Source of the DNA: Tetmemena sp. SeJ-2015
Lineage: Eukaryota; Ciliophora; Spirotrichea; Sporadotrichida; Oxytrichidae
DNA length: 64,000 nt
Assembly: GCA_027382625.1 (NCBI GenBank)
Contig: JAJKFJ010021798.1
Coordinates: forward strand, 36,286 to 100,285
Reading direction: 5' to 3'
Position 1 is the stretch's first letter; every line of letters starts with the position of its first letter. Shown here piece by piece: positions 11,152-46,709 of this stretch. The notes beneath the pieces were generated by a model that was not told the origin of the DNA, ran no database searches, and was given only the letters and a program-made list of their open reading frames with translations. Position numbers and translations under genes: made by a program.

Positions 11152-12059
11152 TCACTTCGCCCTCTGCTTCTTCTGAGGTTGCTCCTTTAGATTGACTTGG
11201 AGCAGCTCTTAGCAGTAGGCAAAGACCTCCTTCTCAATGACATCGATCTTGACTTAGAGTCTGTCATTTCCGTAATCTTCCACTGCTTCAGGTTACTTCT
11301 CGAGTAGGTAGTTCATCATCTGAGTGAGTCCCTCCTTCGAAGCTTTTTTCATCAGCTCAGCCAACTGAACCTTCTCTTCAAAGGGCACATACCTCTCAGG
11401 GTCAAATCCAAAGTCCTCATCCTCTTCATCTATATCCCATTCACATGAGACTTTTTAGAACCAGCTCCCTCTGCAGGCTCGCAATCTTCCATAGGCTGGC
11501 CATCCTCGTCGTTCTGATGAGCTTCTGCAGCTGTGTCGATGTTGAGGGAAACCTTGAGTTCTTTTACAAGTTTCTTAGCCTTGCGCTCCATAGTCTCAGC
11601 CAAGCGGAAGATGTCAGAGCCAGACACGTTGTAGGTCTTGCAGTTGGCCCAGATCTACTGAATGTCTGCAAACACCTGCTCCAAGTAATCATACTTGTTC
11701 TTGTCTAGATTTTTCTATAAGCTTATTAGAAATCTAAGAGTAAATGAGAAAGAGAAGATATCATAGCTTAGAGTAGAAAAATTATACTCACTCTAACTGT
11801 AGAAAGATCCATAGGCTTCTTGATCACTTGGGGGTAGTCGTGTAGTCCAAGAGCTAAAGAAATCAATTATCAATGATAACAAATTACCTTCCCAGTTTAC
11901 AGGTTCGAGGAAAACATAAGACTCAGGTTGTTTCTTCAGCTCGTTGATCAAGTTCCTGACAGGTTCTTTGTGAGACTCATCGATGGGGTTCTTGCTTGAG
12001 TTCCTATATTATGAAATCAGCTTCGTTGATTTTTTATGCTTATGATTAGATGAATTCAT
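11152..12059 (-). CDS. BET-type protein: one bromodomain plus NET domain
   Basis: The start ATG at 12059-12057 opens a basic leader (MNSSNHKHKKS). A bromodomain follows, with the diagnostic segments SYVFLEPVNW, DYPQVIKKPMDLSTVR (the PMDLSTV signature) and DIQQIWANCKTYN (acetyl-lysine-contacting Asn). A Glu/Asp-rich linker leads to a NET domain (RYVPFEEKVQLAELMKKAS...). The stop is TGA at 11154-11152. Two introns are clear: one of about 34 nt inside the VNWEA codons and one of about 76 nt after STVR. BET proteins bind acetylated histone tails in the nucleus; this one has a single bromodomain. The frame slips by one base near 11450 (AAAAAGTC), either a sequencing indel or a very small IES. In-frame TAA/TAG = Gln. 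Confidence 0.85.
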
Positions 12060-12121
12060 ATAAGAGTCAAGGAAGTTATTGTGCAAAACGCTAAGATTGA
12101 GTTGACTGATGATACTTGTCT

Positions 12122-12783
12122 TCAAATTGCTTGTGATGAGTTGATTGCACTTACATTTTGAGTTAGTTTGATTAATCTAATAATTATTTATACTTTTATA
12201 TTACTTTCCCGCATTTTAAAATCATCCTTATTTCTTCTTAATTATATTATTTCCTGACTGATTGGGAGAGCTTTTACGAAGAACATGGCGTGAGATAGTT
12301 TGTCAGCATCCTAATAATTTAAAGATATGTAAAATATTTACTGGTTGCTTGTCATGAGGCCATCCTATTTAGATAGTCTGCTAGTGCATAGAAGGAATAA
12401 AGCCACACTTAGGATTAATGAGGATTGGATAAGGAGCAGATGTGAAGATCTATAACCAGAAAGATTAATTTTCATGAATAGCTGAGAGGCGTTACAGATA
12501 GTACACCAAAGTTTAATAAGAGTGGGTGATAGAATTATTCAGCTTAAATTGTAGAAGCAAGCTGCTGGAAATTTGTTCTTACAAAAAATGCTACGTAAGC
12601 TTTGCTGGTGACATTCTTCACTGTCAACTAAGAAAGCAGAGTTCCCTCTCTGTTATAGAAAACGAGCTCGTTCTCTGGATCTATGTCAATGAAGTGAGAG
12701 CCGATATCAAGTGAGGACTTGAAAAGATGAGCGTGGGTTTGGAAATCATCATCGCTGCTCAAGTGGTCTTCGGAGTCTGACAT
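12122..12783 (-). CDS. MSP-domain (VAP-like) protein
   Basis: The start ATG is at 12783-12781 (MSDSEDHLSSDDD). The MSP fold is recognisable: IDIDPENELVFYNREG, then QLTVKNVTSKAYVAFF, an intron at 12451-12582 (GTAAGA...TATAG), then IFTSAPYPILINPKCGFIPS and, after another short intron, a DKLSHAMFFVKALPI strand. In VAP proteins this domain binds FFAT motifs at ER contact sites, and a C-terminal membrane anchor is usual. No clear transmembrane segment is visible here, so it may be a soluble MSP protein or may continue in an unseen exon. The TGA at 12124-12122 is the first stop in the last readable frame. It lies just upstream of the bromodomain gene on the same strand. Confidence 0.72.
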
Positions 12784-15705: not shown

Positions 15706-18450
15706 TCAATGCTCTTCTGATTCATCTTCTATGTCATTAATGGATTGCCTAATTGCATCAGGCTTGTCAAGTTTATCGCTAGGCTTGTTTGCTCTGGTGG
15801 TAGATCTACCAGGGCCCTAAGTGCTTTAAGCTCCAGCTCCCATGGTGCTATTTCTATCAGCTTACTTGAACTCTTCTTCTTGGAATTTCTTTGTGGATTG
15901 GGGTGGCTATTGCTGCTGAGATTAGTACTGCTATTGCTGCTGCTGTAAAGCTTTCTGCTGATAAAACTGAACTGGATTCTGCTATCTGTAAATAAAAGGT
16001 TAGGTTTGAAAATCCAATGAATAATTGCTTGAACTTACTGATTCGCATTTAATCGAAAACTGGACTGGAGGTTGTACTTGCGTAATTCCTCCAATTATGG
16101 GCTTCATTGGCAGACCTAAGGCAACTCTGGACGGCAAGGCTGCTACTGTGAAAAGGATGTTCACGTTATAAGTGTTAAACACATCTGCCAAGTTCATGTT
16201 CATTTCTTGAACCTGCAAAAGTATGTCATTGAAATTTTAGCAAAAATTACATTCATTTCCTGAAGAAAACAAAAAGCTTACTGTAGATCAATAAGTATTA
16301 ATGTTGAAGGATCAATATATTTCTTGTTCTTAGTACAAATACTAAAAGAGCAACAAGCAACTTCAGAGATAGCTACATTATCAGCAAACTGACCGGTCTG
16401 ATATTGACTTCACTATCATAAATCCCAATCACTTGTATTATGGCTTTGCTGATTTTGCTAATTTTGCTAGTTTGAAGATTGATCCTCATTTGGCTAAGAG
16501 CTTTGGTTACTCGCTGATTAGTTGCTAAGATTATTATTGCTAAGCATTCCAAATCCGGCTCCTCCAAGGCCCAAGCCATAAGCATCCTGACCTGAACTTT
16601 AAGAAGAAACATTTTAACCTGTGTAATCTGCTGATATTGAAAATGAGCCAGAGGCATGATTCATTTGAGTTTAAATATGCTCTCTTCTTTCAACAGCCTC
16701 TCTGAGAGCAACTTCTCTCTCTTGAATTGCCTGAGTGCTTCTTCTTATGTTTTCGATTTATAAATAAGCGAAATAATGGATGGCCTCGCTCAGTCTGTTA
16801 ACTTGCTCTAGAGCCTGTTGAGTCCTCTACTAAGTACTCTAAATTTAGGATAGTTGTTCTCTCAGTCTAGGAGCCTCTTATGCGGGTGGCTATTAGCTCT
16901 ATCTGCTGGCACCTCCTCCAAAGCCAAAAATTGATCTGAAATTGCTGCCCAAAGAACTATGATTAGACTCTATTTAAGGGTTTGGGTTAGTGAGCAGGAA
17001 TTAAGCAGCATGCTCAAGATTAATACAAATGAAATATAAGGAGAGTCAATTGTTTGATGTTACTTTCAAGGCATAGATGCTTGCATCTCTCTCATACCCC
17101 ATTTCTTGAAGTGTTTACAGGAAATCCTGGTTGGGAACAAAGGATTAAGAGGTTGAGGCAGATGACTGAACTCTATTGCTAGCATTACCATCTTGAGTGG
17201 TGTTAAGAATAGCATCATTCTCAGCGGGAGTATTGATCATGTAATCCATAGCCATATTCAAATTATTCTTGAAGTGTTTTAAGACTCTTTTAGAACGTTC
17301 TTCTTCAAAGCCCATCTCAACTAAGTTCTAAACATAGGCAGGGTTAGGCTCAGACTGCTGAACTTATCTTCTTTGCTCTCTTCTTGCCTCTCTTTCTCTA
17401 TTCCTTTCCTACCTCTCTTTCCTGATTTCTGTGTTAAGATCCTTGATAGAAGATTTAATAAATAAGATTGAGCGGGGCTCTTGCATTTCCGAATCTCTGT
17501 CTCTATTTACCGCTTGTCTTAAATGCTGCATTAGAGCATTCGCTCCTCCTCTTTCCTACCCATGCCCTACTAGGATCTGTTGGAAGAAGTTCATCATTTC
17601 GTCCTCTTCTTCTTCCCTTCCACCTCTATAAGCTCTATACTTTGGAGCTTTCATGACTGATTGAGCATCAGTAACCTTCATAATTAGCTCTGGAGTAATT
17701 AGGTCTATCCTCTCTTCGGGTAAAGAGACAGACTCAGCTCTAAAGATTTTACTCTTATCGGCAGAGCCTCCATAATCAGAGCTCCCCTGAGAGTTATTCC
17801 CTCCTGCTGAGTTACTACCGCTGCTACTTTAATTTTGAGAAGCATTTGATCGAGGCCATTTCAAGAAATCTTTCCATGAGGGTTTGACAGGCTTTTCTTG
17901 TGGAGGTGAAACCTGTTCGATCTACTTCTTGGGAATAGATTTGGTGGCTGTGACATTTAGACTCGCTATGTTCTTTATGGGTTGGCTATGGTTAATGGTG
18001 CCATTTTTATGAACTTCGTCTTCCCGCATCTGCTTCATCTTTTCTGAGAAGTAATTAAACTTCAGATGGTTCAACACATAAACTGTATCCCCTGGCATCA
18101 ATCCTGACTCTTTAAAGCTAAAAACAATACTCAAATCAGCAATGAAATAAAAATTGGGATTGGTCATATTCAAGTTGGAAATCCTCATTTATTTTCAAGG
18201 ATCTCAAATCTTATCTTGCTTATCCGGTGTCTTCTCAGACAAACTCAGTAAACATGACTTACCTTAGCTCTCTCAAATTATTGAGAACTCTTCCTGAATG
18301 AAGGAGCTTTGTAGTTTCTAAGTTTGAGTTGCATTTCTCATGCACCTTCTCGAATAATTTCTCCACTCTTAGATCGTCTAGGTAGTTTATGGGAATTTTT
18401 TGCTCAGTATCCGATAAGAAAAGAGTTATATGTTGGAGGCCTTGAGACAT
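15706..18450 (-). CDS. Ubiquitin-like/UBA domain adaptor protein
   Basis: The start ATG at 18450 (MSQGLQHITLFLSDTEQKI) begins a ubiquitin-like fold that continues in the next exon (FSFKESGLMPGDTVYVLNH, matching the GL..GDTV turn of Ubl domains). A charged linker and then two UBA domains follow: YVQNLVEMGFEEERSKRVL at about 17250-17340 and FLQTLQEMGYERDASIYAL at about 17060-17130. The C-terminal third is Gln-rich, low complexity, ending near EDESEEH with TGA at 15708-15706. The Ubl plus UBA layout is that of proteasome shuttle or ubiquitin-ligase adaptor proteins (ubiquilin, NUB1 and KPC2 types); I cannot choose among them. The first ~390 bp and the promoter are duplicated just upstream. Confidence 0.7.
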
Positions 18451-19567: not shown

Positions 19568-20100
19568 ATAGGAGCTGCGCGTTTAATTACTAAGTAGTAT
19601 ATATGCCAGCGATTGGAGCTGCGGGTTATATTAGGGAAGACTCTTATTATAGCTGAGAATTTTATAAAAGAAAATTAAATTTTATATTAAATTAAAAAGG
19701 AAAAAATCAGTGGCAGTTAAAGCGTCTCTGATTTAAATAATTATAGGCCATTCGATTCAGCATGAAATTCTAAGAAATTTTTATCCTTATAATTTTTGTT
19801 TAGGAGAGCACTGTATAGAGTTATAAGCGACGACTAAATATAAATAAAGATGATGATGAGAATGAAGAAGAGTGCGTGAGTCATATCTCGTCTCTGAGAG
19901 AAGCTATGAAGATGATTAATGAAGAAACTCATATTATTATTTTACGAGCAATCTAACAAGCAGCTGATCACTGGGTGAATCTGCGATTTCAACTGTCACA
20001 GAGTTACAGTTTCCATTTATTATTTTAACCAATCACCAATTTTATTTAAAATTCCGACAATAAATAATCATTCTATTGAATATCTTAAACAAACACACTC
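19568..20100. other. AT-rich spacer before EF-2 copy A
   Basis: No coding sequence is supported. Two ggagctgcg motifs lie at about 19570 and 19615. The last ~50 bp presumably carry the EF-2 leader, because a related ctcgc...aactatg context precedes the start codon in copy B. Confidence 0.5.
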
Positions 20101-21251
20101 GCAAACTATGCCCAACTTATCTTATCAGATTAGGGAGATCATGTATATCCCCAATCAGATTAGAAACTATATGAGAGGGAATTATTGCCCACCAGTCTCA
20201 AGTAAACTGACTCTTTGATTGCCAAGGCCGGAATCATTTCCACTTTAATGGAGAGGCCATAGTTAAACTACGAGTCCGACATCGAAGGTGACAAGAAGCC
20301 CTACCTTATCAATCTTATCGACTCCCCAGGCCTACTCTCTATCTTCCTCTGAGGTCACTGCTGCCTTGAGAGTTACTGATGTAATACCCACAATCGATTA
20401 CGTCGAAGGTGTTTGCGTGTTTCTTAACTGTGCTCAGACAAGCACTTGGAGAGAAGATCAATCAGAACATAGCAACAAGATCGACAGAGGTATTCTTGAG
20501 CTCCAAGTCGAGGGAGAGCACATGTATCAGAACTTCCAGAGAGTTATTGAAAACGCCAACGTTATCATCTCCACTTACGAAGTTGAGGATATGGGAGAGG
20601 CTCAACAGGTTGACCCTACCAAGGGTACCGTCGCCTTCGGTTCCGCCCTTTTCGGCTGGGCCTTCACCCTCACTAGATTCGCCAAATTAAAGCATGCATT
20701 GTGCTCATGAGCGCAAGTTCAACGTTGACTTCGACAAGATAGTGTGCTAATATTTAAATAGCAAGCTTTGGGGTGATAACTACTTCGATGCCAAGGCCAA
20801 GAAGTGGAAGTTATTGTGCGATGATGAGTTATTATAAGAGATGCTTCGTGCAATTCATCATGGAGCCCATCGTGAGACTCTGCAGAAACATCATGGACAA
20901 CAACAGAGAAGCCGTGTGGAAGATGTGCAACACCCTTGAGGTAATTACTCAAGCCCGAGGATAAGGAGAAGCAAGGAAAGGATCTCCTCAAGGCTGTCTT
21001 CCAGAAATGGATCAACGCTGCTGATGCCTTTTTTTTAAAAAAAAAATAAGATTGCGAATTAATAAGTCTGGTGAGCACATTATCGCTGGTTTAAAGGTAT
21101 TCATTATTCTAAACATAATGGAAACCGTTAACGCAACCTCCAACCAAGTTTGCTAATTTAATCTAAAAAAAAAGACTCTACGTCGTTGCTCAGCCTCTTT
21201 AAATAGCACATGACAGTTTATTAAAGGCTCCAACCTTCTCGTTGATCAGAC
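20101..21251 (+). CDS. EF-2 copy A, scrambled block P
   Basis: EF-2 is the GTPase that drives ribosomal translocation. Block P holds the start codon (20108-20110) and mostly the odd-numbered segments, in 5'-to-3' order. They include REIM...[16 protein letters not shown] (20206-20241), [12 protein letters not shown] (20268-20332), [12 protein letters not shown] (20345-20381), [19 protein letters not shown] and a long segment, [16 protein letters not shown] through [10 protein letters not shown] (20474-20685). Then come [30 protein letters not shown] (20836-20940) and [20 protein letters not shown]. Isolated late pieces close the block: SGEHIIAG at 21066, [11 protein letters not shown] at 21119, LYVVAQPL at 21176 and SNLLVDQT at 21219-21251. 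Gaps between segments are only 5-30 bp, and each gap's missing codons are found in blocks Q, R1 or R2. Confidence 0.9.
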
Positions 21252-21300
21252 TTGAAATTATTTTGGAAAACATAATTTTTAAGATATTTAAAAATACTTA

Positions 21301-22586
21301 AGATTAGAAACATGTCAGTCATTGCCTATGAAATATATAAAATTCGCCAATCATTTCCGAGGCCAAGGCTGGAGAGGAAAATACAGCCCAGGCCACGTCG
21401 ACTTCTCCTCTGAAAGTTATCATTAATGATCCAAAGATAATACATTCGACAAGATGATGACCAAGCTTTTATAATGAAATTCAATATTGGAAGGTTGACG
21501 AAATTGCCGATGATGAGTGTATGAAGATTATGTGGTGATGCTGATGCCCTTCTTGAGATGATCGTGATGAAGCTGCCCTCTCCCGCCAGAGCCCAGCAAT
21601 ACAGAGCCGCCTATCTTTATGAGGGTCCCATCGATGACCCATGCGGACAAGCCATCAAGAACTGCGACCAGAAGGGACCCCTCATGGTCTTCATCTCCAA
21701 GATGGTCCCCACCAACGACAAGGGTAGATTCTACGCCTTCGGAAGAGTCTTCTCTGGAATCGTCGCCACTGGACAAAAGGTCAGAATCATGGGACCCAAC
21801 TATACCCCAGGATCCAAGAACGACCTCAACGTTAAGAACATTCAGAGAACCGTTCTCATGATGGGAGGAAAGGTCGAGGCTGTCCCCGACGTTCCTTGCG
21901 GTAACACTGTCGGTCTCGTCGTTATTAAAAACTTATCCTAAATATGTATTACTCCGTCTCCCCTGTCGTGAGAGTCGCCGTTGAGCCCAAGAACGCCTCA
22001 GATCTTCCCAAGTTTTTTAATTTACTCTTCTCTTAGAATAAAACAGATACATTTGAAATCTGCCTCAAGGACTTGGTTGATCCTTAATCTTATAATGATA
22101 GATTGATTGTAGCAATATTGAGCATAAGATTCAACATTATGGACGTTGCCCTCTACAAATGAATAAGGTAAAAATCCTGCTGAGCCCAGATTCGTGGAGC
22201 CCATCTTCTTGTGCGAAATCCAGGCCCCCGATGATGCCATGGGAGGTATCTATCAAACCCTTACCCAGAGAAGAGGTATCGTTATTGGTGAAGAGCCAGT
22301 CAACGGAACTCCTCTTATCATCGTCAAGGCTTATCTCCCCGTCGCTGAGTACACATATCCTTATTATAATTATAAGTTTAATGAGTCCTTCGGTTTCACC
22401 CAGCACTTGAGAGCCATGACCTCCGGAAGAGCCTTCCCTCAGTGCGTGTTCGACCATTGGGAAAGTATTGGTACCGATCCTCTTGAGGCCGGCTCCAAAT
22501 CTGCCACTCTCGTCGAGACCATCAGAAAGAGAAAGGGTCTTAAGGCTGGAATCCCCACCCTCGATAACTTCCTCGACAAGCTATGA
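21301..22586 (+). CDS. EF-2 copy A, scrambled block Q (holds the C terminus and stop)
   Basis: Block Q again runs 5'-to-3'. Small segments come first: RNMSVIA (21306-21327), IISEAKAGE (21343-21372), PGHVDFSSE (21387-21417), FDKMMTKL (21446-21472) and [10 protein letters not shown] (21487-21517). A long central segment follows from [20 protein letters not shown] to GNTVGLV (about 21540-21921). Then come [21 protein letters not shown] (21950-22012), EICLKDLVD (22056), RFNIMDVAL (22128-22158) and a long C-terminal segment from [16 protein letters not shown] to LDNFLDKL with TGA at 22584-22586. The LDNFLDKL end is typical of EF-2. One ordinary IES (22351-22386) interrupts the last segment. Codon use is strongly C-ending, as expected for a highly expressed gene. 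Confidence 0.9.
22351..22386. other. Conventional IES in EF-2 copy A, pointer TGAGT
   Basis: Between codons for PVAE and SFGF sits AT-rich sequence flanked by the direct repeat tgagt (22346-22350 and 22382-22386). Removing 36 nt including one repeat restores the conserved PVAESFGF reading. Confidence 0.85.
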
Positions 22587-22847
22587 GCAATAGAATCACG
22601 AGGAGATATACCAGATATCTTCCTCTTCAACAAGCAAGATTAACCATATCTCTGTTTAATCATACACTTAATTACTCAAAAATTAAACAAAAACTAACTC
22701 TTTTCATATATTCTCGCATTTCACATGTCCTTTCGATTAACTTCCCCCGATTCTATTCAGAGTAAAGCCATCAGAAAAGTATAAATTCATTTCAGCAACT
22801 CACCGATTCATCCTAATCAGCTGTTCTAGATTAAGATTAATAAGACA
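22587..22847. other. AT-rich spacer between blocks Q and R1
   Basis: About 260 bp with no EF-2 coding sequence that I can recognise. It is likely eliminated DNA between MDS blocks and perhaps includes the gene's 3' untranslated region just after the TGA. Confidence 0.5.
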
Positions 22848-23351
22848 TAGCCCAACTTCACCATCGATCAGATTAATGGAGCTAAATGGATGAGTTGCCC
22901 ACGTCGACCACGGAAAGTCCACTTTGACTGACTCTTAATTGAAAGTGTTAAGTTGATGAGAGGCCAGATTCACCGATACCAGAGCTGATGAGCAAGAGAG
23001 AGGTATCACCATCAAGTCCACTGGTGTCTCCCTTTACTACGAATCCTAATCATTTTTGTCTCTATTCGCCAAGATCTACGCTAACAAGTTCACTTGTATC
23101 TTAATCTTTTTAATTTGATGATGGATCTAACCTTAAGAGATGCTTTTCATTGTATAATTAAGAACTACTCTTAAATAATTTGATATAGATCTTCCCAAGC
23201 TCGTCGAAGGTCTAAAGTACATTAACAGCAGACCAGAAGGAGAGAAACAGACTTCAGTAGAATCTTATCTGACACTAAGGAAGCCGTCATTACTGATAAG
23301 TTAGGTTATAAATCAATGAAAGAAGAGTGTTCTACGCTGCTCAACTCATTT
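22848..23351 (+). CDS. EF-2 copy A, scrambled block R1
   Basis: Nine short segments are in gene order: NFTIDQI (22851-22876), [13 protein letters not shown] with the G1 P-loop (22896-22937), [20 protein letters not shown] through LYYES with the switch I region (22960-23046), FAKIYANKF (23066-23092), DDGSNLKRCF (23117-23142), DLPKLVEGL (23188-23213), DQKERNRL (about 23231-23256), TKEAVITE (about 23273-23297) and RRVFYAAQLT (23319-23350). Each fits between segments found in P, Q or R2. Examples: cccaactt is shared with P (20111-20118 and 22851-22858), and gatcttcccaag with Q (22001-22012 and 23188-23199). Confidence 0.88.
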
Positions 23352-23394
23352 TGAATTTTACAATTCATTTAATTTATACAGCATGTTTTTAAAG

Positions 23395-24440
23395 AACAGT
23401 TACTGATGGTGCTCTCGTCGTCGTCGATTATCTTTTATTTGCGTGCAAACCGAAACTGTGTCACCTAATATTCCTAAGATCAAGCCCGTCCTTTTCGTTA
23501 ACAAGATTGAGTTATCAATTATTACTGTGTTCTAAAACTTTATAATTCCCTTGAGGTCGCACTCAAGTCCTGTTTTATTACGATTACTGAAAAATCAATT
23601 CATAGTTATAATTGTGGTCTCGTCGGTGTCGATCAATACCTCATGAAGCAAGGTACCATCTCCGACCACGAAGATGCCCACAACATTAGAGTCATGAAGT
23701 ACTCCGTCTGATGCTATTGTTACATTTTTTATCTCCATTTTCTCATAGTGAAGGTCTCAAGAAGCTCTCCAAGTCTGACCCCTTAGTCCTCTGCTACACT
23801 GAGGAGTCTGGTTTCCTGATTCTCTGGTTGCGGAGAGCTCCACGTCGAAATCTGCTTCATCAAATTTTGTCTTGGTTGATGAGTACGCCAAGTGCGAGAT
23901 CAAGAAATCCGACCCCGTCGTCACCTACAAGGAAACCAGCTTTAGAATCAGGTTTGCCTCTCCAAGTCACCCAACAAGCACAACAGACTCACGAAATAGG
24001 TAGTAGCCTCTTGGTGATGAGCTCACTGACGCCATTGAGAAGGACACCATCTCATCCAAGCAAGACCAGAATAACTATTAACAGACTTCTCGCCGACAAG
24101 TACGATTGGGATATCAATGATGCCAAGAAGATCTGGTGCTTCGGTCCCGAGACCTCAGGCCCCAACTATTCATACTCTCTTGTTAGTTAGTTGATCAGAC
24201 CAAGGCCGTCCAGTACCTCAACGAAATCAAGGACTCCTGCGAAGCTGCCTTCCAATGGGCCACCAAGACTCTTGAACTGTCATGACTGAGGAGAACATGA
24301 GAGGTATTAGATTCAACATTAAAAAAAGTTGTAAAATTATGCCCTCCACGCCGACGCTATCCACAGAGGTGGTGGTCAAATCATCCCCACTGCCAGAAGA
24401 GTTAAATAACTCTGCTCAACTCACTGCTGAGCCTATATTC
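23395..24440 (+). CDS. EF-2 copy A, scrambled block R2
   Basis: The segments are again in gene order: TDGALVVVD (23399-23430), [18 protein letters not shown] (23477-23510), LEVALK (23551-23570), [20 protein letters not shown] through RVMKYSV (23616-23708), [21 protein letters not shown] (split here, about 23750-23812), [10 protein letters not shown] (23828-23856), [84 protein letters not shown] with AAFQWATK (24191-24272), [31 protein letters not shown] (24351-24402) and AQLTAEP (24413-24434). Pointers shared with other blocks include gttactgatg (20372-20381 and 23399-23408) and ggtctcgtcg (21912-21921 and 23616-23625). Confidence 0.88.
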
Positions 24441-24749: not shown

Positions 24750-27700
24750 ATGTCCAACAACAATTAAAATCAACCCAAGCCTCAAACTACAGCTGCAGTA
24801 ACTACTACTACTAATCAAACTACACTTCCATAGGGAACTCAGCAAACTACTTAGCAAAAAACTCCAGCAACAAATTTAAATACTTCTGGCAATTTAACCA
24901 CCAGCCAAGGAGCTTTATCAGCAGGCACTTCTCTACAGGCAGTGCTACTCAAAATCCTCCAAAGGCTGCAACAATTCAAGCAGTATCAGGAGATAAAGCT
25001 TAAACAATTCAAGGTACTGCTCAAAATACCACCATAAATTCTTAAACAGCTCTCAATAAACCAGCAGCAAACTAAAATTTGGCTTCTGCGTCTGGATAAC
25101 AACAGCCACTCACGACATCAGCATCTTTAATTTAATTAAGATTGTATATTAATCTGGCACTCAGCTATTTGGATCTTCATAATTGAGTCATTTCCTTTAA
25201 TTATGTTAAAGATCTTAGAACTCGGCGACAAGTGGCGGTCTTTTTGGGCAACCTTCAATATAAGCAAACTCACAAAACTAGCCATAGTTAGCAGGAGCCA
25301 AAACCACAACTCCTCAAGTGAACCCATTGATATAGAGCAATTCTCAGACTAGTGGAGCCCCAAGTCTCTTTAATTCTTAGACATCTAACTAAACTTAAAG
25401 TGCAAACTAAGGAACATCATCATTTACAGCTTAAGGGAATGGACTTACTACATCTACTGGCTCTGGTGGTTTTGGCGGCAACTTAAATACATCCTCAACC
25501 ACAAATACCTAAAGCACTAATTTAAGCTAAAAGCCATCTGATGTGAAACAGTCAGCTCAAGTATCAACTACTCTAAATAATTAGGCTGCTTCTTCTGGAA
25601 CTAACACCTCTAATCAAACGCAACCAACAGCCACAACTTAGAACTAGGCTTCGAAGATTGGAGGAAATTAGACTAATCCCTAGAATTTAAGTCAAAATAC
25701 AACACAATAAGCGACTACTCTTTAGAGTAACACTGCTCAAGTACAAAATCCTTAAACTAATGCTGCTTAAAAGCCAGCATAAAAAGAAGAAGAGAAAAAG
25801 ACAACTACATAACCTTCTTCATAGTAAGCCTAAACTTTAAACAACAGCTCCACCTCAGCCTAGAATAAGCAATAGACTACTACAAATACTCTGACTAATC
25901 AGACAAAGTAACCTATTACCTAGCCTGCTCAAAATATTGGAAGTTTAAATAATTCTGGTTAAGCAATCAACCAAAAGCCAGCAACAACGACAACAACAAC
26001 TTCAGGCTAAAATGTTACCAATTAGCTTTAGAACTCTTAAAATTCAACAAAATCAGTAACCACAAACCCAGCAACTAATATCTAAGGATAAAATTAGAAG
26101 GTCCTTGGTTAAGATCAAACACTAATCTCGTCATAAAATAGCACTGGCTCTTTAAAGCCACAAGATAAAAACTTAACTCAGAATCTTAATTAATCATAGC
26201 AGCAAGTACAATCAAATTAGCAAAAGCAAGTTCCATAACCTACCAAGCCTATAGTGATTGAAAAGTGCTCTTTCTGTTAAAAGCAAGTAGATAACTAAAA
26301 TAGGTAAAAGATAGCCCTTGAATCCTGCTCTCATTTGATATGCCTTGAATGCTTTATGAAGAACTAAGTTCAAGACATTTAAAAGCTTCAATGCCCTATG
26401 TGCAACATTCAATATCTTATTTAGCCGCTTCATTGTTATTTTTTTGACCGTATTTATTGCAGTTAGGATTGGCAATAGAATCGTGAATCAAGAGCTTCCA
26501 AAGCTTATGGAGTAATCTCAAGCCAGTTTTATAGATTGCAGCCTTCACCCTGGAACTTAAATAGAGGAGTACTGTTTTGAAAGCAAGGAACTTGTTTGTG
26601 CAAATTGTGTGAAGCTTGGAACAATAGATGGATCTAGGCATCTTAATCATAAACATTAGAAAGGTGTTTAATGGAGCGATATATCCGCTTACTTGAAATA
26701 GAGTGGTGAAATCATCAACCAGAATAGGCCATTTTATCTTAAATTTATTTAATTAGGAAGCTTCTGTTGGCACTGAATGAGAAGATAAACTAATTCCAGC
26801 CACAAAGAACCAAAAACTTAAACTCTCAGGGCTTTAAGTATCTTCTATCTTAAATCTAGCTCGGACTTATGCAGCCTCTCGCAACAGAGGAGGACATATA
26901 ATTTCTTATCTAAAAAGCTAAAGCCACTCAATAGGAGTAAGTAAAGTTTTTATCTTTTTAGAGAATCAATTTTTAATTTATCAAATTCAATTTACAAAAG
27001 TAGGTAGCCGAGATAGAGAAAAGCTTCGTCTAAAATTGCACTTTCAATCCAGATATGAAGCACAACTTTAAAGAGCTCCTAAAGAATGTGGATGGGTCCG
27101 CATCTTTGATGAAGTTTATAGACTGTGAAAATTTATACTGGGGGAAGAGAGATGGCTTAACAGCTGAGAACTTTCATGCCAAACTTGTCTCATAGGCAGG
27201 TCCCTTAGTCTTCATAATTAAGACAGAGATGGGTGAAGTGTTTTTAATTAATGTTTGGAGCTTATAGATAGGAACCCATCAGAGCTACAGCTGGCATTGA
27301 AAATGTAAAAGATAGCAAGGCATTCACATAACTGCTTTTAAGATTATAAATTATTTCTTATTCACTTTCTCTCTGACTCAGAGAAAGATTTTCAAGACTT
27401 ACCTAATAAATATTGATAATGAGTTGTTAAATTTCATTGACAACAAATCAAGTTCAAGGCAACAGATATTGAGGTTTACAGAGTAAAGTTGAGCGACGTA
27501 GCTCCCTCATCTCACTAAAATGCGGGATAAATCTAAGACTAGAAAGTATTTGCAGCATCAGCACAGTCTCAGAAAGAAGTTGCTTAAGCTCAGATGGATT
27601 AACCTTAAGCTCCTAACCCATTCTCTATTTAAGATATTCTAAATATAACTTAAATAGCTATTGCAGCTTAAACTTAAAATACTAATACAAATGCCAATCC

Positions 27701-39390: not shown

Positions 39391-40522
39391 ACTATGCCCA
39401 ACTTATAAATTCATAATCAGGTTAGGGAGGTTATGAACACTCCTGAACAAATTAGAAACACTTTGACAATTTATTTAGTTATTGCCCTCTGAATTAATGG
39501 TTATGACTCTTTAATTGCAAAGGCTGGAATCATTTCTTTGAGAAATTTGAGAGGCCATTTACTTTGATACGAATCAGATATCAGCGGTGAAAACAAACCT
39601 TATCTCATTATCTTCGTTGATTCCCCAGGTCACTAATAGCTAAATCCTCTGAAGTCACAGTAGCTTTAAGGGTCACTGATTCTATATCTTATGTCGATTA
39701 TGTGGAAGGAGTTTGCATTAAATCAAGTTTAAAACTGTGCTAAGATAAGCTATCAATGAAAAGATCAATTTATAATAAGACAAGGTCGACAAAGGAATAA
39801 TAGATTCTTAAGTTGAAGCTGAATCTATTTATCAGAACTTCTAGAGAGTAATTTCAAGCGCTAACATAATCATCTCATCCATTGAACCTGAAGATATGGG
39901 AGACAGTTTACAATTTGACCCCTCTAAAGGCACTGTTGCGTTTGGTTCTGCTCTCTTTGGCTGGGCCTTTACCCTCACTAAATTCGCCAAATATTTTTAC
40001 AAGTTCAATATAGATTTCGAGACGATTAGTGAAAAATATTTATCAAGCTTTGGGGTGATAACTATTATGATTCTTCCGCTTAAAAATGGAAAACCTTTAA
40101 TTTCGATGATGGATATTTATTATAGGATGCTTCGTTCAATTCATCATGGAGCCAATCGTTAGACTGAGTCGAAACATCATGGAAAACAATAAAGAAGCTG
40201 TCTGGGAGATGTGTAGTTCCCTTGAAAATAATTTAATCACGCCTGAAGATAAAGATAAGGAAGGCAAAGATCTCCTAAAGACTATTTTCAAGAAGTGGAT
40301 AAATACTGCGGATGCCCTTCTTTTAATTGATGGAAAATATTTCATAAACTATTGGTCACTCCATAACAGGTTGCACACTTATAATAATGAAACAATTACT
40401 TCTCAATCTGACCAGGTTTGAATTATAGTTCAAATATTATATCAACAGACTTTACGTTACTGCTGAGCCTCAATTATTGCTCATTAAAAAATAGTGACTC
40501 CAACGTTCTTGTTGATCAGACT
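39391..40522 (+). CDS. EF-2 copy B, scrambled block P
   Basis: The same segment list in the same order as block P of copy A: start codon 39394-39396, [21 protein letters not shown] (39503-39541), YESDISGENKPYLIIF... to PGH (39569-39640), [37 protein letters not shown] sequence around 39910-39985, DFDKM-type pieces, LWGDNYYDSSA (40046-40085), [20 protein letters not shown] (split, 40126-40190) and EDKDKEGKDLLKTIFKKW (40243-40300). The same late fragments close the block: ETITSQSDQVC (40391-40422), LYVTAEPQL (40447-40475) and SNVLVDQT (40498-40522). Third positions are A/T-rich, unlike copy A. Confidence 0.82.
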
Positions 40523-40568
40523 CTTACTAAAAATGTATGAAAAAATTAATTTTAGGAATAAAAGATAA

Positions 40569-42703
40569 TTAGAAACATATCAGTCATTGCTTAGATATTA
40601 ACATTATAAATTCATTTATTCATTTCTGAAGACTAGGTTGGTGAGGCTAATCATAATTAGACTCAGGACACTCCGACTTCTCCTCTGAAAGCTACAAACT
40701 CACAATTTCTATTCGAGAAGATGATGACTAAGCTTTTATATTGAATGTAAAATGGAAGACCGACAATATTGCCGATGATGAGTGTATGAAGATTATGTTG
40801 TGCTGCTGATGCCCTTCTTGAGATGATCGTGATGAAGCTGCCCTCTCCCGCCAGAGCCCAGCAATACAGAGCCGCCTACTTATGAGGGTCCCATCGATGA
40901 CCCATGCGGACAAGCCATCAAGAACTGCGACCAGAAAGGACCCCTCATGGTCTTCATCTCCAAGATGGTCCCCACCAACGATAAGGGTAGATTCTACGCC
41001 TTCGGAAGAGTCTTCTCTGGAATCGTGCCACTGGACAAAAGGTCAGAATCTTAGGTCCAAACAGCAATGCTAAATCAAAATAGGAACTGTTTATCACCAA
41101 CATCGAAGGAACTGTTCTTATGATGGGAGATTAGGTAGAGGTTGTTTCTGAAGTTCCTTGTGGAAATATTGTTGGTCTCGTCATTATTTTATTATTCTAT
41201 ATCTTTATGAATTACTCTGTTTCTCCGATTGCTAGAGTCTAAGTAACTTCACACTTTGCCTAAGATCTTCCAATATCATTTCTGTTTTAGATAAAATTCC
41301 TATTATAGAAACCTGCCTCAAGGACTTAGCTGATGAGTATATCAACAGCAATAACGATTTTATATTAAAAATAGTTGTATAATTGTGAGAGTTATTTCAT
41401 TTGAAATTCAATATTATGGATGTTGAACTCCACTGTTATTTTGATGCACTAAAAATATAATTACTGAGCCTAGATTAGTATAGCCAATTTACTTGGGCGA
41501 AATCTTGACTCCAAATGATTGTCTTGGCAGTGTCTATCAAGTCCTTTCGCAAAGAAGAGGAATGATTTTGAGTGAAGAAGCAATTCCAGGCACTTAACTA
41601 ATAATTGTGAAGGTTTATTTCCCTGTTCTAGAATCTTATAAAATCATTTATCTAAATAGATTGAATCTTTTGGCTTCGAACAGCAAATCAAAGATATGAC
41701 CTCGGGAAGAGTCGTCAATCAAAGTATTTTTGATCATTCAAAACCCAAAAACTCTTAAAATATCATCAAATTGTTTTTTTAATTAATTCTTGACTGATAA
41801 AAAGCTCATAATATTTACGGAAGAGTTCTGAGCATTTTTAGAGAAAAGAAAAATGAGAATTTTAAAGCAAAACGAAATTACGAAATAATTTATGAAAGAG
41901 TTGGCACAAAAAGATTTGAAAGAAATAATTATGAAATCTCTTCATAATTCAATAAATAAGATTAAATAATTTAATGTTATTCGCAAACCATTAGAGCATT
42001 CATTTCCCGTCTCTTATTTTGTCAAATATTTTGCATTAATTAACAACTCTATAAAAAAGAATATAAATCTTAAATATATGATAATAGGAGTACAAAGGAG
42101 CTAAAATGTTTTTAATTTTCTCTAAACCAATAAAATGGCGCCTAAGATCTGATAGGGGGTCTTTTTTTATATATTATCTAAGAGAAGATTATTATGTTTA
42201 AAAAATTATACTTCATTCTTGCAAAAATGCATGCTAAAATTTTAATATCTAAATATTGAACCATTTTTATAATTCATCTCCTATTACTGTTAATAATGTG
42301 TGTGAGCGTGATGAGTTTAGTAAACCCCGAGCTATATTTATTTCTAATATAAATCACTCCTCAAGATAAGCTGAATATTGCAAATAAAGTTTCATCAGAA
42401 TATTAATTTTGCATGAATAAGTTTGAATTTTTAATTAATTCGCTCCTAAGCTTCTTATCATAAATTAAATAAGGAAAGATGTCAATTCTTATGGTAAATA
42501 ATTATTACTAAAAATATTGATTACTTGATGATTCGCAAATGAATTTTAAATTGATAGAATAATTGGGATTTGATTGGGAGATAATACAATAGGACCCTCT
42601 TGACAAAAACTCAATGGCTGGAGAATTAGTTCAAACTATCAGAAAGAGAAAAGGTATTTAGGTATTCATCCCTCCTGTCTCTGAATTTTTAGACAAGTTG
42701 TGA
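40569..42703 (+). CDS. EF-2 copy B, scrambled block Q (C terminus and stop)
   Basis: The segments match block Q of copy A: RNISVIA (40570-40592), ISEDQVGEA (40622-40648), GHSDFSSES (40666-40692), FEKMMTKL (40712-40737), [10 protein letters not shown] (40752-40781), the central [20 protein letters not shown] segment (40808 onward), the NIVGLV segment ending near 41180, [14 protein letters not shown] (about 41208), [10 protein letters not shown] (41310-41339), FNIMDVELH (41404-41433) and [20 protein letters not shown] onward (41463-41760). A break of about 830 bp precedes the last segment, [14 protein letters not shown] to VSEFLDKL, with TGA at 42701-42703. Single-base losses inside the central segment break the frame, so the gene may be dead or the read erroneous. 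Confidence 0.8.
40768..41050. other. Tract nearly identical to EF-2 copy A (21503-21788)
   Basis: Over about 285 bp the two copies differ at only a handful of positions, including the noncoding gap before ADALLEM. Immediately outside, nucleotide identity drops sharply and codon use changes from C-ending to A/T-ending. This is the pattern of recent gene conversion. Confidence 0.75.
41638..41669. other. Conventional IES in EF-2 copy B, pointer GAATCTT
   Basis: The repeat gaatctt occurs at 41631-41637 and 41663-41669. Excising 32 nt restores PVLESFGFE. It sits one codon from the homologous IES of copy A but uses a different pointer. Confidence 0.85.
41770..42590. other. Large IES-like insertion in EF-2 copy B block Q
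   Basis: About 820 bp of AT-rich sequence between the FDH segment and the DPLD segment. Copy A has no interruption at this point. No transposase-like frame is visible. Confidence 0.65.
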
Positions 42704-43513
42704 AGGCACATCCTTTGAGACAAGAAATATTATAGCTCTTGTTAAATTCAAAACTCCCCACCATATCTTATTAATTTAATAATTCTCTTCACTATATATT
42801 TTTGCGCCTAAGGGTTAAACTATCTAAATTATATTAAAAGCACTTAAATCATTCTTAAATCATTTATTCTTATCTATCGTTCTCAAAAAAATATGCTTAT
42901 CAAGATGAAACAATCAATTTTTTAGAATTAGAAAAACTTTTAGGTCTTTTGTGAAATGAATTCAAGCAAAAATGATCAATTATGTAATTGAATGAGACCG
43001 GTCTGTTTATTTAAGGCCAAGATTTAATGGATTTAAGAACTTTAAACAAAAGAGAGAGGTGAATTTCAAGAGCTCTTGCATAATTCTTACTTATACTTTG
43101 GACCAAGCTCTAAGTTGTAGAGCCGTAATCCTTCTCAAATTTTTAAGCTAAATTTTAGATAAAAAGACAATAATTAAATCCTAACTTTTTCAATAGTAGA
43201 GACCGAATTTATCCTAAGATTATCAAATTTAATTACTTAATTATGATATTATTTTACTTCAATATCAATACAAAGTGATTTCATTAAGTTATTTCCAATT
43301 GTAGATCATTATTTCAAGATTAGCCTGATAACTTTTTAAAAAAATATAATTTTATAAGGTTAAAATCTATCCCTCATATTTTTAAATCTCTCTCTGAGAC
43401 TATTAATAATTCTTACAGATCTAAGATGACTGAATGTCGGGGTCTTAGCAAGTTATATTTTATAATAAAAATACTAATTGATATCAATTAGCTTTTTGCT
43501 TTAATATGATTAT
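42704..43513. other. AT-rich spacer between blocks Q and R1 of copy B
   Basis: No EF-2 coding sequence or other gene recognised. It is the counterpart of 22587-22847 in copy A, about three times longer. Confidence 0.5.
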
Positions 43514-44010
43514 GATCAACTTCACAATCGATCAGATTAGTAGCATTATTGAATTATTTGCCCACCTCCACCATGGAAAATCCACCTTAACTGACTCTTA
43601 TATAAGCCAATAAGAGGCCAGATTCACTGACACCAGATCTGAAGAGAAAAAAAGAGGTATAACCATCAAGTCTACTGGTATTTCCCTTTACTACGAATCT
43701 ACTAAAAATTCATTATTTTATTCGCTAAAATCTATTCCTACAAGTTTAATTACAAAATTTTGAATTCGATGATGGAACTAATCTCTAGAGATGCTTCTCA
43801 ATTTGTTAATATTCAGCGATTTAATTCTTTTTTTAATGATTGTCCAAGATCTTCCCAAGCTGATTGAAGGTCTAATAAATATCAGAAGGCAAGAGCCTTG
43901 CAGCTTATAGATATTTACAATATTTTACTACCAAAGAAGGCATCTTGATTGAAATTATTTCAAATTCTTTCTCTCATTAAGAAGAGTCTTCTACGGTGCT
44001 CAACTCATTT
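43514..44010 (+). CDS. EF-2 copy B, scrambled block R1
   Basis: Same order as copy A block R1: NFTIDQI (43515-43536), [13 protein letters not shown] (43560-43601; the second residue pair of the HVDHGKS P-loop context is changed to HLHHGKS), [20 protein letters not shown] to LYYEST (43614-43700), FAKIYSYKF (43731-43750), DDGTNL-type piece (43767-43795), DLPKLIEGL (43849-43873), short intermediates, and [10 protein letters not shown] (43981-44010). Confidence 0.78.
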
Positions 44011-44767
44011 TATTAAAAAAAAAAATATTTCAGATTTGTCTAAATTATTTGATTAAAACAAATTATTGTTAATCAGAGAAATATCTTAAATAATAATATT
44101 CGATTATTAAATAAAAATGATAGTTTAAGATTTTAACTACTTGACATTATAGGTCAAATACGAATAGTTAATCGCGAATGTGGAAAGTTTAAAATGTAGC
44201 GACTCTTAATTGCAAGACAGAGTTTAATTAACTCAGTCTAATAAGTAAATTGGAAAGTAATAGTTATCAAAAGAAAAATACTATTAAAAAAAAAGCGCAT
44301 TGATACTTAGAAATTATTTTCCATTATAATAATCGAAGACTTGAAATATGACTCATCTTAAAATGATTCCATTTGCAGACGAAAGACATTACTGTACAAT
44401 GCACTCATTTCAGCCAATAAAATTTAAGAGTAGTGGTCATAAACTCGTATTTTGAAAAAGATAAATCTATATCACACTTTAATAGCTCTACACATATTCT
44501 CATAAATATATAAGCTCTGTTAAGCTAACTAAATTATCAAGAATTCACAGTTTGTAAAGGATACTGACTTATAATTAAATTTCTTGTACTCTTTCGTGCT
44601 TGTATTTGTGTATATTTGAAACTGCAATAATCTTATTATATTCATCCTATATTAAATCTAATTAGTTTTTGGAGGAAAAAATTAAATTGCCAGCATTTTA
44701 TATTCCCCTAAACTTTAATTTACTTAGTTAAATTATTTAAATTGAATTATATTGTCTTTATTGATTT
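44011..44767. other. Expanded spacer between R1 and R2 of copy B
   Basis: About 760 bp of AT-rich noncoding sequence. In copy A the equivalent gap (23352-23394) is about 43 bp. Confidence 0.6.
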
Positions 44768-46709
44768 GGAAACTGATGGCGCTGTTGTCGTAGTCGATAA
44801 AATTATTTTGCCTGCAAACTGAAACTGTGAAAATGATTTTAAAAGATCAAGCCGGTACTCTTTATTAACAAGATCGATAACTTAATTTTAAGATTTTTCA
44901 ATTATTAAATTCCCTTGAGCTTGAATTCACGCTTGAATATTCTCTATAAATATAAAGCCCATCATAAAGCAAGAATTATGCTGTTCTCGTCGGAGTAGAT
45001 CAGTTTCTGACAAAACAAGGTACTATCACTGACTAGGAAGACGCCCAAAAAATTAGGCCTATGAAGTACTCTACAATATTACAGAAATTAAAGATTAAAA
45101 GTAAAAAATCAATATACTAAGTTCATTATTTTAAATCTGATCTTCAAACAAAAAGAAAAAGCATTTATTAAATAGGAAATATAACAACTCATAATAAATT
45201 TATTTCGACTTTGATAAATAAGAATGAGAGGAATTGAAAGATTAATTATTTAAAATCCAAACATTTTTTTGTAAAGATTGGTAAAATAAGAGGAATGAAT
45301 TTCGTATTTCTTTAATAGAATAAAGAAAAATATGCTAAGAATTATTAATTTATATTTCTCATCCAAATTCTATTAGTATAAAGGTCTATGAAAAACTTAA
45401 ATATATATGTCATTAAATTGTCATTTTATAGAGAAAAAATTTATTTAACATATCTTATTTTACCATGGTCTTCACTTGACAGCCATTGTAGTTATATTGA
45501 GTATTAAAATCAATGGTATATAATTTATTACTATAAATACTAATTTTGCCTTTAAAAAATTTATAACAAAGATAAATATCTGAATAATCTATTTCTGTTT
45601 TTGAAGGTCTAAAAATGTTGTGCAAGTCAGATCCTTTAATTGAATGCTACTCTGATGAAAGTGGTAACTATATTTGAATTTAAGGTTGCGGAGAACTCCA
45701 CCTAGAAATCTGCTTTTTAAGTATTTGAGGATGGGAATTGATGAGTATTCTCAGATTGAGATTGACAAATCTGATATCTATGTGCCCCTTAAGGAAACTT
45801 TAAATCCTGATTATATACTGGTTTGCATGACTAAAACTGCAAACAAGCACAACATACTCATAATTATTAGCCTCTTTCTAACGAGTTAGTAGAAGCCATA
45901 GAAAAGGGAGATTTTCAAGCAAACTAAGATCAGAAGTAAAATTGATAGTGCAGCTTGTCAATAACTTCGACTGGGACTAAAGGGAAGCTAAGTAGATATG
46001 GTGTTTTGGCCCTGAAACTGTAAACACCAACTTAACTATAATCAGACCAAGATCAATTGAAAGAAGGTAAAAAATTAACGCCATATTGGATTAAATAAAA
46101 ATCATAGTCAAGTTCTCAAAATAAAGTAAGCCTTATTTTTTTATGAGAACATTAAATTTTAGAAAAACTTAAGAAGTTTCTTCCTTTATTAAAATTCTTC
46201 TACTATGAGTAAACTAAAATTCAGATGAAGACAAGTATCGTGATGACTGATATTGCAAACTTAGCTGATCTATCCAAAAAAAACTATTAAAATATGGTTT
46301 TTCTTTATACTTTGAACTTTAATTAGAAGGATAATCCTGCAGATTTATCTGGCATTCTATAGCATCTCCGTTCTTATTAATTTTATTAAAAACGATTTAA
46401 ATTAAATTATATGCTCTAATTATTGATCAGACTAAGGCTGTTTAATATCTTAATGAAATAAGGGACTCAGTTCAGAGTGCTTTCCAATGGGTTACCAAAG
46501 TTAAATATGAAGTTCTTATTTAACAATCTTGATTGAAGAGAACATGAGAGGTGTGAAATTCAATATTCCCCTATAAATAACGGTTTATTGTTCTTGATAT
46601 TTTAAATCCACTCGGATGCAATTCATAGGGGCGGTTCTCAACTCATTCCAGCCGCAAGAAAAGTTTTTAAGTTATTTATGCTCAACTCACTGCTGAGCCT
46701 AGATTTAAT
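44768..46709 (+). CDS. EF-2 copy B, scrambled block R2
   Basis: The segments follow the copy A R2 order: TDGAVVVVD (44773-44801), CLQTETV (44810-44830), KIKPVLFINKID (44845-44880), LELEFTL (44906-44930), VLVGVDQFLTKQGTIT (44980-45035), EGLKMLCKSDPLIECYSDES (split, 45604-45665), GCGELHLEICF (45682-45714), DEYSQIEIDKSDI-type piece, [32 protein letters not shown] (46426-46470), EENMRGVKFNI (46538-46570), HSDAIHRGGSQLIPAARKV (46607-46662) and AQLTAEPRF (46679-46705). A long insertion (about 45076-45603) separates two segments that are close together in copy A. Confidence 0.8.
45076..45603. other. Large insertion between R2 segments of copy B
   Basis: About 530 bp of AT-rich sequence with no gene; the copy A counterpart is about 40 bp (23709-23750). 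Confidence 0.6.

Follow-up and report, generated by a model that had tools for sequence, protein, structure and literature searches.

An EF-2 gene woven from four collinear germline blocks, and a paralog with the same map, in the ciliate Tetmemena

A 64,000-nucleotide (nt) stretch of DNA from the ciliate Tetmemena sp. SeJ-2015, here called the window (positions 36286-100285 of contig C2863 in a draft genome that comprises 5213 contigs and 146.2 Mb), carries at 20.1-24.4 kb numerous short fragments of the EF-2 gene in broken gene order, as seen when open frames are read with TAA and TAG as glutamine. We found that these fragments constitute a micronuclear scrambled EF-2 gene, in which 51 segments on one strand, distributed over positions 20108-24425, rebuild a complete EF-2 of 835 codons with no stop. 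The segments reside in four consecutive blocks that each run in rising gene order and that interleave into a single protein, and a second, diverged EF-2 weave with the same block architecture is located further along the same contig. Taken together, these observations make it very probable that the locus is the micronuclear precursor of an EF-2 gene, and they favour an origin from a locally multiplied locus whose main strand would have been patched from other copies and which would later have been duplicated whole.

An earlier note on this DNA had proposed that four same-strand blocks of strictly increasing gene order interleave to give one complete EF-2, and jump-allowing alignment rebuilds precisely this arrangement. 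In germline order the blocks of the first weave (copy 1) are as follows, with the position of each segment in the gene given in brackets.

20108-21240, plus strand: block P, 16 segments, 20108-20113 (1), 20126-20158 (3), 20206-20232 (6), 20269-20325 (9), 20345-20371 (11), 20396-20413 (13), 20427-20453 (15), 20474-20677 (17), 20715-20729 (19), 20763-20804 (21), 20836-20934 (24), 20948-21019 (26), 21067-21087 (32), 21121-21147 (36), 21173-21193 (38), 21232-21240 (42)
21303-22586, plus strand: block Q, 11 segments, 21303-21323 (4), 21350-21373 (7), 21388-21405 (10), 21445-21462 (20), 21488-21508 (22), 21540-21911 (27), 21950-22000 (29), 22055-22072 (34), 22127-22147 (46), 22179-22346 (50), 22383-22583 (51), then the stop codon TGA at 22584-22586
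22854-23338, plus strand: block R1, 9 segments, 22854-22868 (2), 22897-22926 (5), 22960-23037 (8), 23065-23085 (18), 23117-23134 (23), 23188-23205 (30), 23231-23245 (40), 23280-23285 (44), 23321-23338 (48)
23399-24425, plus strand: block R2, 15 segments, 23399-23425 (12), 23440-23454 (14), 23476-23499 (16), 23550-23561 (25), 23616-23699 (28), 23750-23806 (31), 23826-23846 (33), 23872-23931 (35), 23952-23984 (37), 24007-24063 (39), 24080-24163 (41), 24190-24267 (43), 24279-24308 (45), 24341-24394 (47), 24414-24425 (49)

Segments are 6 to 372 nt long (median 27), and the blocks span 77% (P), 98% (Q), 85% (R1) and 72% (R2) of the protein. Read in gene order, with 1 and 2 standing for R1 and R2, the blocks follow one another as P1PQ1PQ1PQP2P2P2P1PQPQ1P2PQ2Q12P2Q2P2P212P212Q212QQ, and only the junction of segments 50 and 51, inside Q, is conventional. 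The 51 segments thus form four ascending runs, and a random order would have four or fewer with a probability of 3e-36. The map agrees at every position with the even-segment order given in the earlier note (R1, Q, R1, Q, R1, Q, R2, R2, R2, R1, Q, Q, R1, R2, Q); the note's estimate of about 50 segments comes close to the number mapped, and its pointers of about 5-12 nt measure 3-13 nt, with a median of 8. Where it expected few missing codons, the gene is not merely near-complete: none is missing, as the last gap is filled by R1 23280-23285. Its statement that P holds most odd segments is true as far as segment 26, beyond which R2 takes the odd role.

The map was produced by aligning reference EF-2 proteins to the DNA under a scheme that permits a jump to any position, each jump carrying the same fixed cost. 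A first profile, composed of human EF-2 and the genome's own collinear EF-2, gave a score of 2387 in the absence of any bonus for pointers, compared to 678-720 for five base-shuffled controls and 719 for the reverse strand; the shuffle scores rule out chance matches as the source of the weave. A protein-database search with the draft protein then returned contiguous hypotrich EF-2s, the Stylonychia lemnae protein among them; their contigs measure 2.7-3.0 kb, and the relatives P0001-P0005 have whole EF-2 frames on them. A second profile made from the hypotrich proteins P0001-P0006, again with no pointer bonus, rebuilt the whole protein (score 3433) from 44 pieces, and 29 of the 43 junctions share at least 5 nt, compared to 0.65% in slid controls. 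When the bonus was applied, the alignment resolved 51 segments and some ambiguous micro-pieces. In this way the alignment of ciliate EF-2 proteins to the window that the earlier note had suggested yielded the list of segments, pointers and block membership. Segment cuts were set at codon boundaries within pointers, segment 44 was cut by hand, a one-codon piece at 24199-24201 was discarded as spurious, and one micro-segment in P from the pointer-bonus alignment is not counted among the 51. Pointers of 5-13 nt are present at 49 of the 50 junctions of copy 1, again compared to 0.65% in slid controls. The sole shorter one, AAG (3 nt) between segments 43 and 44, is CACCAAG (7 nt) in the other haplotype.

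The rebuilt protein is full length, and its identity is 96.3% with P0001, 93.3% with S. lemnae EF-2 and 65% with human EF-2. It carries the EF-2 GTPase motifs NKID and DSPGHVDF as well as the diphthamide-histidine loop. The ciliate code in which TAA and TAG encode glutamine and TGA is the stop fits both weaves, since both woven frames end in TGA and have none inside, outside a near-identical tract described below. In copy 1, G or C occupies third codon positions at a frequency (GC3) of 0.66, and TAA or TAG is used at 0 of 35 glutamine codons.

A DNA search of the genome revealed a match of 70% identity, in pieces, on the window's own contig. This match, overlooked in the earlier note, is a second EF-2 weave (copy 2, 39394-46694), whose blocks, block order and block string are those of copy 1, with one extra conventional junction in Q. 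Its blocks and one notable tract are listed here.

39394-40513, plus strand: block P of copy 2, 16 segments at the gene positions of copy 1, with segment 32 (40354-40371) hand-placed
40568-42700, plus strand: block Q of copy 2, 12 segments, equal to the 11 of copy 1 with the last one split by the eliminated stretch 41738-42574
43518-43997, plus strand: block R1 of copy 2, 9 segments
44772-46694, plus strand: block R2 of copy 2, 15 segments, with two eliminated stretches enlarged to 536 and 396 nt
40768-41058, plus strand: near-identical tract in block Q of copy 2, about 290 nt, matching copy 1 at about 21503-21797, the rest being about 70% identical

All 50 junction intervals of copy 2 overlap or touch those of copy 1, 48 of them as found by the search and two, around segment 32 of P, as placed by hand. 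The map was taken at a jump cost J0 of 15, because a J0 of 13 gave 82 mostly spurious pieces; the hand-placed segment 40354-40371 has a left pointer of 1 nt, and three alignment pieces of segment 27 were merged. Three stretches are enlarged or inserted in copy 2 only, at 41738-42574 (838 nt), 45067-45602 (536 nt) and 46029-46424 (396 nt). Upstream of the two weaves, inverted matches of 70-79% (19644-19710 with 39119-39056, and 19908-20047 with 39042-38903) indicate that a portion of this flank has opposite orientations at the two.

The copy 2 protein is 69.8% identical to that of copy 1 over 785 positions. Over 747 codons, the nonsynonymous divergence (dN) is 0.21 and the synonymous divergence (dS) 1.55, a ratio of 0.13, and outside the near-identical tract there are no TGA codons, compared to an average of 6 in a selection-free simulation, in which 0 occurred at least once in 500 runs. 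These sequence comparisons indicate that copy 2 is under purifying selection, and the dN/dS ratio together with the lack of TGA rules out a plain pseudogene. Copy 2 is AT-rich (GC3 of 0.40) and uses TAA or TAG at 19 of 47 glutamine codons. In phylogenetic trees it forms a long branch that a first tree groups with copy 1, P0001-P0003 and S. lemnae and whose placement a second leaves open; a clade of the two copies is not rejected (p-AU 0.37). A protein-database search for an orthologue of copy 2 gave, among the best 120 matches listed, the same nearest proteins as for copy 1, plus one long plant entry.

Pointer bases are kept between the copies at 455 of 542 places (84%) and other segment bases at 819 of 1183 (69%; p 4e-11), in a comparison of P, Q and R1, excluding R2, that counts each pointer at both of its places. 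Between species, according to PMC9797194, pointer positions are conserved while pointer sequences have mostly changed, and the better retention of pointers between these paralogs differs from that pattern. The near-identical tract extends into eliminated DNA upstream of segment 27. Mis-polishing of the assembly by macronuclear reads is thereby ruled out as its source, and gene conversion between the two germline loci appears to be the better reading. Two indels within the tract, of 2 nt and 1 nt, shift about 49 codons out of frame, and these may be real or may be consensus errors.

The other haplotype provides a further view of the locus. Contig C3976 is collinear with window positions 6827-34825 at 96-98% identity, and we aligned it to the window with the segment cuts taken from the latter. 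The EF-2 segments differ between haplotypes at 4 of 2505 bases (three silent changes and one amino-acid change) and by no indel. Eliminated DNA differs at 20 of 1421 bases and by 8 indel events (Fisher 2.7e-6 against the segments), and the DNA between blocks at 2 of 392 bases and by 3 indel events. Given that everything described here comes from one single draft assembly, we considered that the weave might be an assembly artefact or a collection of chance matches. We give this idea virtually no credence, because the same architecture occurs in two haplotype contigs and in a diverged paralog, findings that exclude assembly error, and because the alignment score is far above those of the shuffles.

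We also considered whether the cell relies on a contiguous EF-2, the woven locus being a relic without function. Three EF-2 loci only were seen in the genome, the third of which (C3085:216175-219553, L019) has long pieces that are collinear and mostly complete, with a few short jumping pieces in weakly conserved spots. The existence of this gene speaks for a relic. However, the C3085 protein is only 68.7% identical to that of copy 1, which means that C3085 does not hold the woven gene in unscrambled form; a macronuclear EF-2 that maps elsewhere as a contiguous gene was among the findings that the earlier note had named as fatal to its proposal. Moreover, the woven copy 1 protein is 93-96% identical to other hypotrich EF-2s, whereas C3085 reaches only 68-70%, and the woven segments carry no stop, no indel and the few, largely silent allelic differences noted above. 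The GC3 of copy 1 and the absence of TAA and TAG from its glutamine codons likewise speak against a relic, and we judge this explanation very improbable. Neither a search with S. lemnae EF-2 (54 scored of 72 candidates) nor one with the EFG_IV domain turned up the copy 1 protein in contiguous form; the weave is therefore the only source of hypotrich-type EF-2 in this assembly.

These genome searches and the window itself contain some other features. Among 20 open frames of the window that were examined, four have Pfam matches: a RING finger (25183-26580, plus strand), a sulfotransferase (50427-51842, minus strand), a UBA domain (17046-18188, minus strand) and a bromodomain (11352-12125, minus strand). 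Elsewhere, C1762:32394-38158 (L002, L003) has adjoining EF-Tu and EF-G-like genes with long frames and one TGA and is probably a bacterial contig, and C3322:29298-40364 (L005, L008) has a run of GTP_EFTU-domain matches that is possibly a tandem family.

When evaluating the eliminated DNA, we compared 78 sites of copy 1 at which an eliminated stretch of one block lies opposite a junction of two others, scoring the longest common word against random gene windows. Three sites reach p of 0.05 or less, all of them in P, and each carries a third copy of a joint between Q and R1.

20184-20192, plus strand: likely micro-segment or relic ATTGCCCAC, third copy of the Q-to-R1 junction 4-5; copy 2 equivalent near 39481-39487
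20249-20259, plus strand: likely micro-segment or relic TGGAGAGGCCA, third copy of the Q-to-R1 junction 7-8; copy 2 equivalent near 39551-39557
20819-20826, plus strand: likely micro-segment or relic CGATGATG, third copy of the Q-to-R1 junction 22-23; copy 2 equivalent near 40104-40113

The first two were matched by 0 of up to 400 random windows each, and the third has a p of 0.021. What gives these third copies weight, which measure 7-11 nt across both paralogs and 8-11 nt in copy 1, is the identity of the three sites and the fact that copy 2 has them again. First, they are all three Q-to-R1 junctions of the 5' half, and they are every place where P faces a junction of two adjacent non-P segments with P on both sides. 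Second, among 69 tests in copy 2 the same three sites alone reach the threshold (p 0.031, 0.008, and 0 of up to 400), and eliminated DNA elsewhere is 52% identical between the copies. The haplotype contig also carries all three. They are likely to be micro-segments of two overlapping pointers each, or at least relics of P's own copy.

The pointer order itself bears on this point. The classical odd-even pattern of two clusters does not describe copy 1, given that its even segments come from three blocks and the odd role switches block. The word formed by the 51 segments has 49 scrambled pointers, of which 6 remain after longest-first removal of repeat and return words, while 200 random orders leave 6 to 16 after the same reduction. 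If the three micro-segments are counted, P strictly alternates, holding every odd segment from 1 to 29 of a 54-segment map, and 0 of 52 scrambled pointers remain. Partial sets of micro-segments, named by the first segment of the junction, leave 0 (4, 7, or 4 and 7), 7 (22), 4 (4 and 22) or 3 (7 and 22). Complete reduction is reached by 15 of 500 random four-block orders and by 2.8% of random insert triples, and so full reducibility with the micro-segments is suggestive, not strong. The segment map bears out the earlier view of a scrambled ciliate EF-2 with an odd-even logic extended to four blocks.

A further characteristic of the weave is that a single block dominates each half of the gene. 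Of the first 26 junctions 23 involve P, and of the 22 that follow 21 involve R2; 0 of 3000 random four-block orders reach both counts. This pattern suggests a main strand patched from other copies rather than an even complementary decay. The earlier note had attributed the weave to tandem duplication in two rounds and a subsequent complementary decay. Duplication and decay as such are in keeping with four same-strand blocks that each span 72-98% of the protein, with the eliminated lengths in copy 1 and the similarity past pointers (both described below) and with the third copies, but nothing fixes the number or order of duplications, and the asymmetric pattern, the eliminated DNA that has no overall similarity to the parts skipped and the lengths in copy 2 do not support the proposal as it stood. 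Symmetric decay of four equal copies from exactly two such rounds would account for four collinear blocks and for the retention of one or few copies at each gene position. Yet the strong local dominance of P and then R2 speaks against it, the blocks are unequal (9 to 16 segments, 485 to 1281 nt), and no leftover similarity is present that would date or pair them. We regard this version as quite unlikely.

Under the explanation that we prefer, the blocks would be remnants of a locally multiplied EF-2 locus, with the main strand formed by P over the first half of the gene and by R2 over the second. Where the main strand was damaged, short pieces of the other copies would have come to span the lesions, and the parts of those copies that found no use would have shrunk. 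The finished arrangement would predate the duplication of the entire locus that gave rise to the second weave, and would have been retained since. During macronuclear development, the cell would excise the short AT-rich intervening stretches and join the 51 segments (54 with the micro-segments) at their 3-13 nt pointers, giving one EF-2 gene. The segment map, the pointers, the allele, the paralog and the block asymmetry are observed directly, whereas the order in which the evolutionary events took place is the least secure part of this account.

Two measurements on the eliminated DNA are consistent with this history. In copy 1, measured cut to cut with pointer ends included, the 22 gaps that skip one segment match its length (median ratio 0.98, Spearman 0.57, p 0.006), and the 24 gaps that skip more than one have shrunk to a ratio of 0.28. 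With pointers removed, the correlation for skips of up to 60 nt is 0.50 (p 0.01). In addition, the first three bases past the exact pointers show slightly more matches than expected, 0.33 versus 0.25 in copy 1 (p 0.001) and 0.40 versus 0.27 in copy 2 (0 of 1000).

Several points weigh against the account just given. With pointers removed and skips limited to 40 nt, the length correlation in copy 1 is 0.31 (p 0.17). In copy 2, single-segment gaps have a ratio of 1.11 and a Spearman coefficient of 0.09 (p 0.68), longer skips there having a ratio of 0.20. Overall, eliminated DNA resembles the skipped parts of the gene no better than it resembles random parts (394 versus 399 expected, standard deviation 12, p 0.69, 47 gaps), and where a long stretch is skipped, the block has only some tens of nt in its place. 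The three significant tests for third copies are, among 78, not above what a 5% threshold allows by number alone, and the boundary between a P-dominated and an R2-dominated half was chosen with the map already in view. The final map was built with the pointer bonus, in whose absence the junctions sharing at least 5 nt are the 29 of 43 given above. Finally, joining by the cell, presumably with template RNA from the old macronucleus as guide, is carried over from knowledge of hypotrichs rather than observed here; guidance of segment joining by template RNA is established in Oxytricha (PMC9797194).

Three of these points, namely the missing overall similarity, the long stretches reduced to tens of nt and the lack of a length match in copy 2, count in favour of a gradual model. 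In this model, that of Landweber and Chang as summarised in PMC9797194, the weave would have arisen by stepwise recombination of coding segments with AT-rich eliminated DNA at short repeats, and no full-length duplicates would have existed. However, four same-strand blocks in full gene order, each spanning most of the protein, are not expected from scattered exchanges, and the length match in copy 1, the similarity past pointers in both copies and the third joint copies in P also argue against it. We consider the gradual model unlikely, though deserving of serious attention. Local duplication and decay is the favoured origin, being the best account of blocks that are collinear and on one strand, of the matching lengths in copy 1 and of the third joint copies.

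We are evenly balanced over a more specific proposal, in which a main strand of P and then R2 received patches from copies that were still good, including double-pointer micro-segments of 8-11 nt that are conserved between the paralogs. In this proposal the map was complete before the locus was duplicated, and no segment has been lost or swapped since, despite saturated silent sites, so that a scrambled map can freeze and need not ratchet on.

Comparison with published systems helps to place the EF-2 weave. Odd-even scrambled genes of hypotrichs are described as two clusters of alternating macronuclear-destined segments (MDSs) (PMC5940158, PMC9797194). The weave resembles them in that alternating segments come from separate blocks, pointers are short and intervening DNA is removed conventionally, but the even series of its 5' half is distributed over three blocks, its odd role passes from P to R2, and its four same-strand blocks each span most of the gene. 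In Oxytricha trifallax, Table 3 of PMC5940158 gives 22 processed loci with at least four irreducible pointers, and among these atypical loci Contig6325.0.0, with 61 MDSs and 59 scrambled pointers, is of a similar size class. The EF-2 word without micro-segments, which leaves 6 pointers, is like these loci, and with the three micro-segments it is unlike them in reducing to nothing; the main text of PMC5940158 does not describe them as collinear blocks.

The same source reports a 77 kb tandem duplication in Oxytricha with two paralogous scrambled chromosomes (Contig20275.0.1 and Contig5288.0, about 75% similar). There, as here, one scrambled pattern is common to two paralogs after duplication of a germline locus, but seven MDSs are scrambled in that pair, whereas in EF-2 all 50 junctions of a 51-segment weave are common. 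Duplication and decay as modelled by Gao et al. 2015 (summary in PMC9797194) predicts that an eliminated stretch has the length of the MDS that it replaced. Our weave agrees with that model in having segments woven from local copies and departs from it in having four blocks rather than two, a dominant block that is patched, and no residual similarity. Junction counts near 200 are known (195 in Oxytricha and 204 in Tetmemena; PMC9797194). Literature searches among open-licence papers brought up neither a scrambled EF-2 nor a locus with four collinear blocks of full span.

Two paralogs with about 70% protein identity and one 51-segment, four-block map amount to a natural experiment on the evolution of a massively scrambled gene. 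They indicate that even a highly complex map can persist unaltered while the gene is duplicated, undergoes gene conversion and diverges to saturation at silent sites, contrary to the simple expectation that scrambling rises with time. The asymmetry of the blocks and the length match in copy 1 provide concrete predictions for the duplication and decay model, and the three micro-segments offer a test of the smallest segment that the descrambling machinery can use. Furthermore, a highly expressed housekeeping gene can rely on about fifty precise joins.

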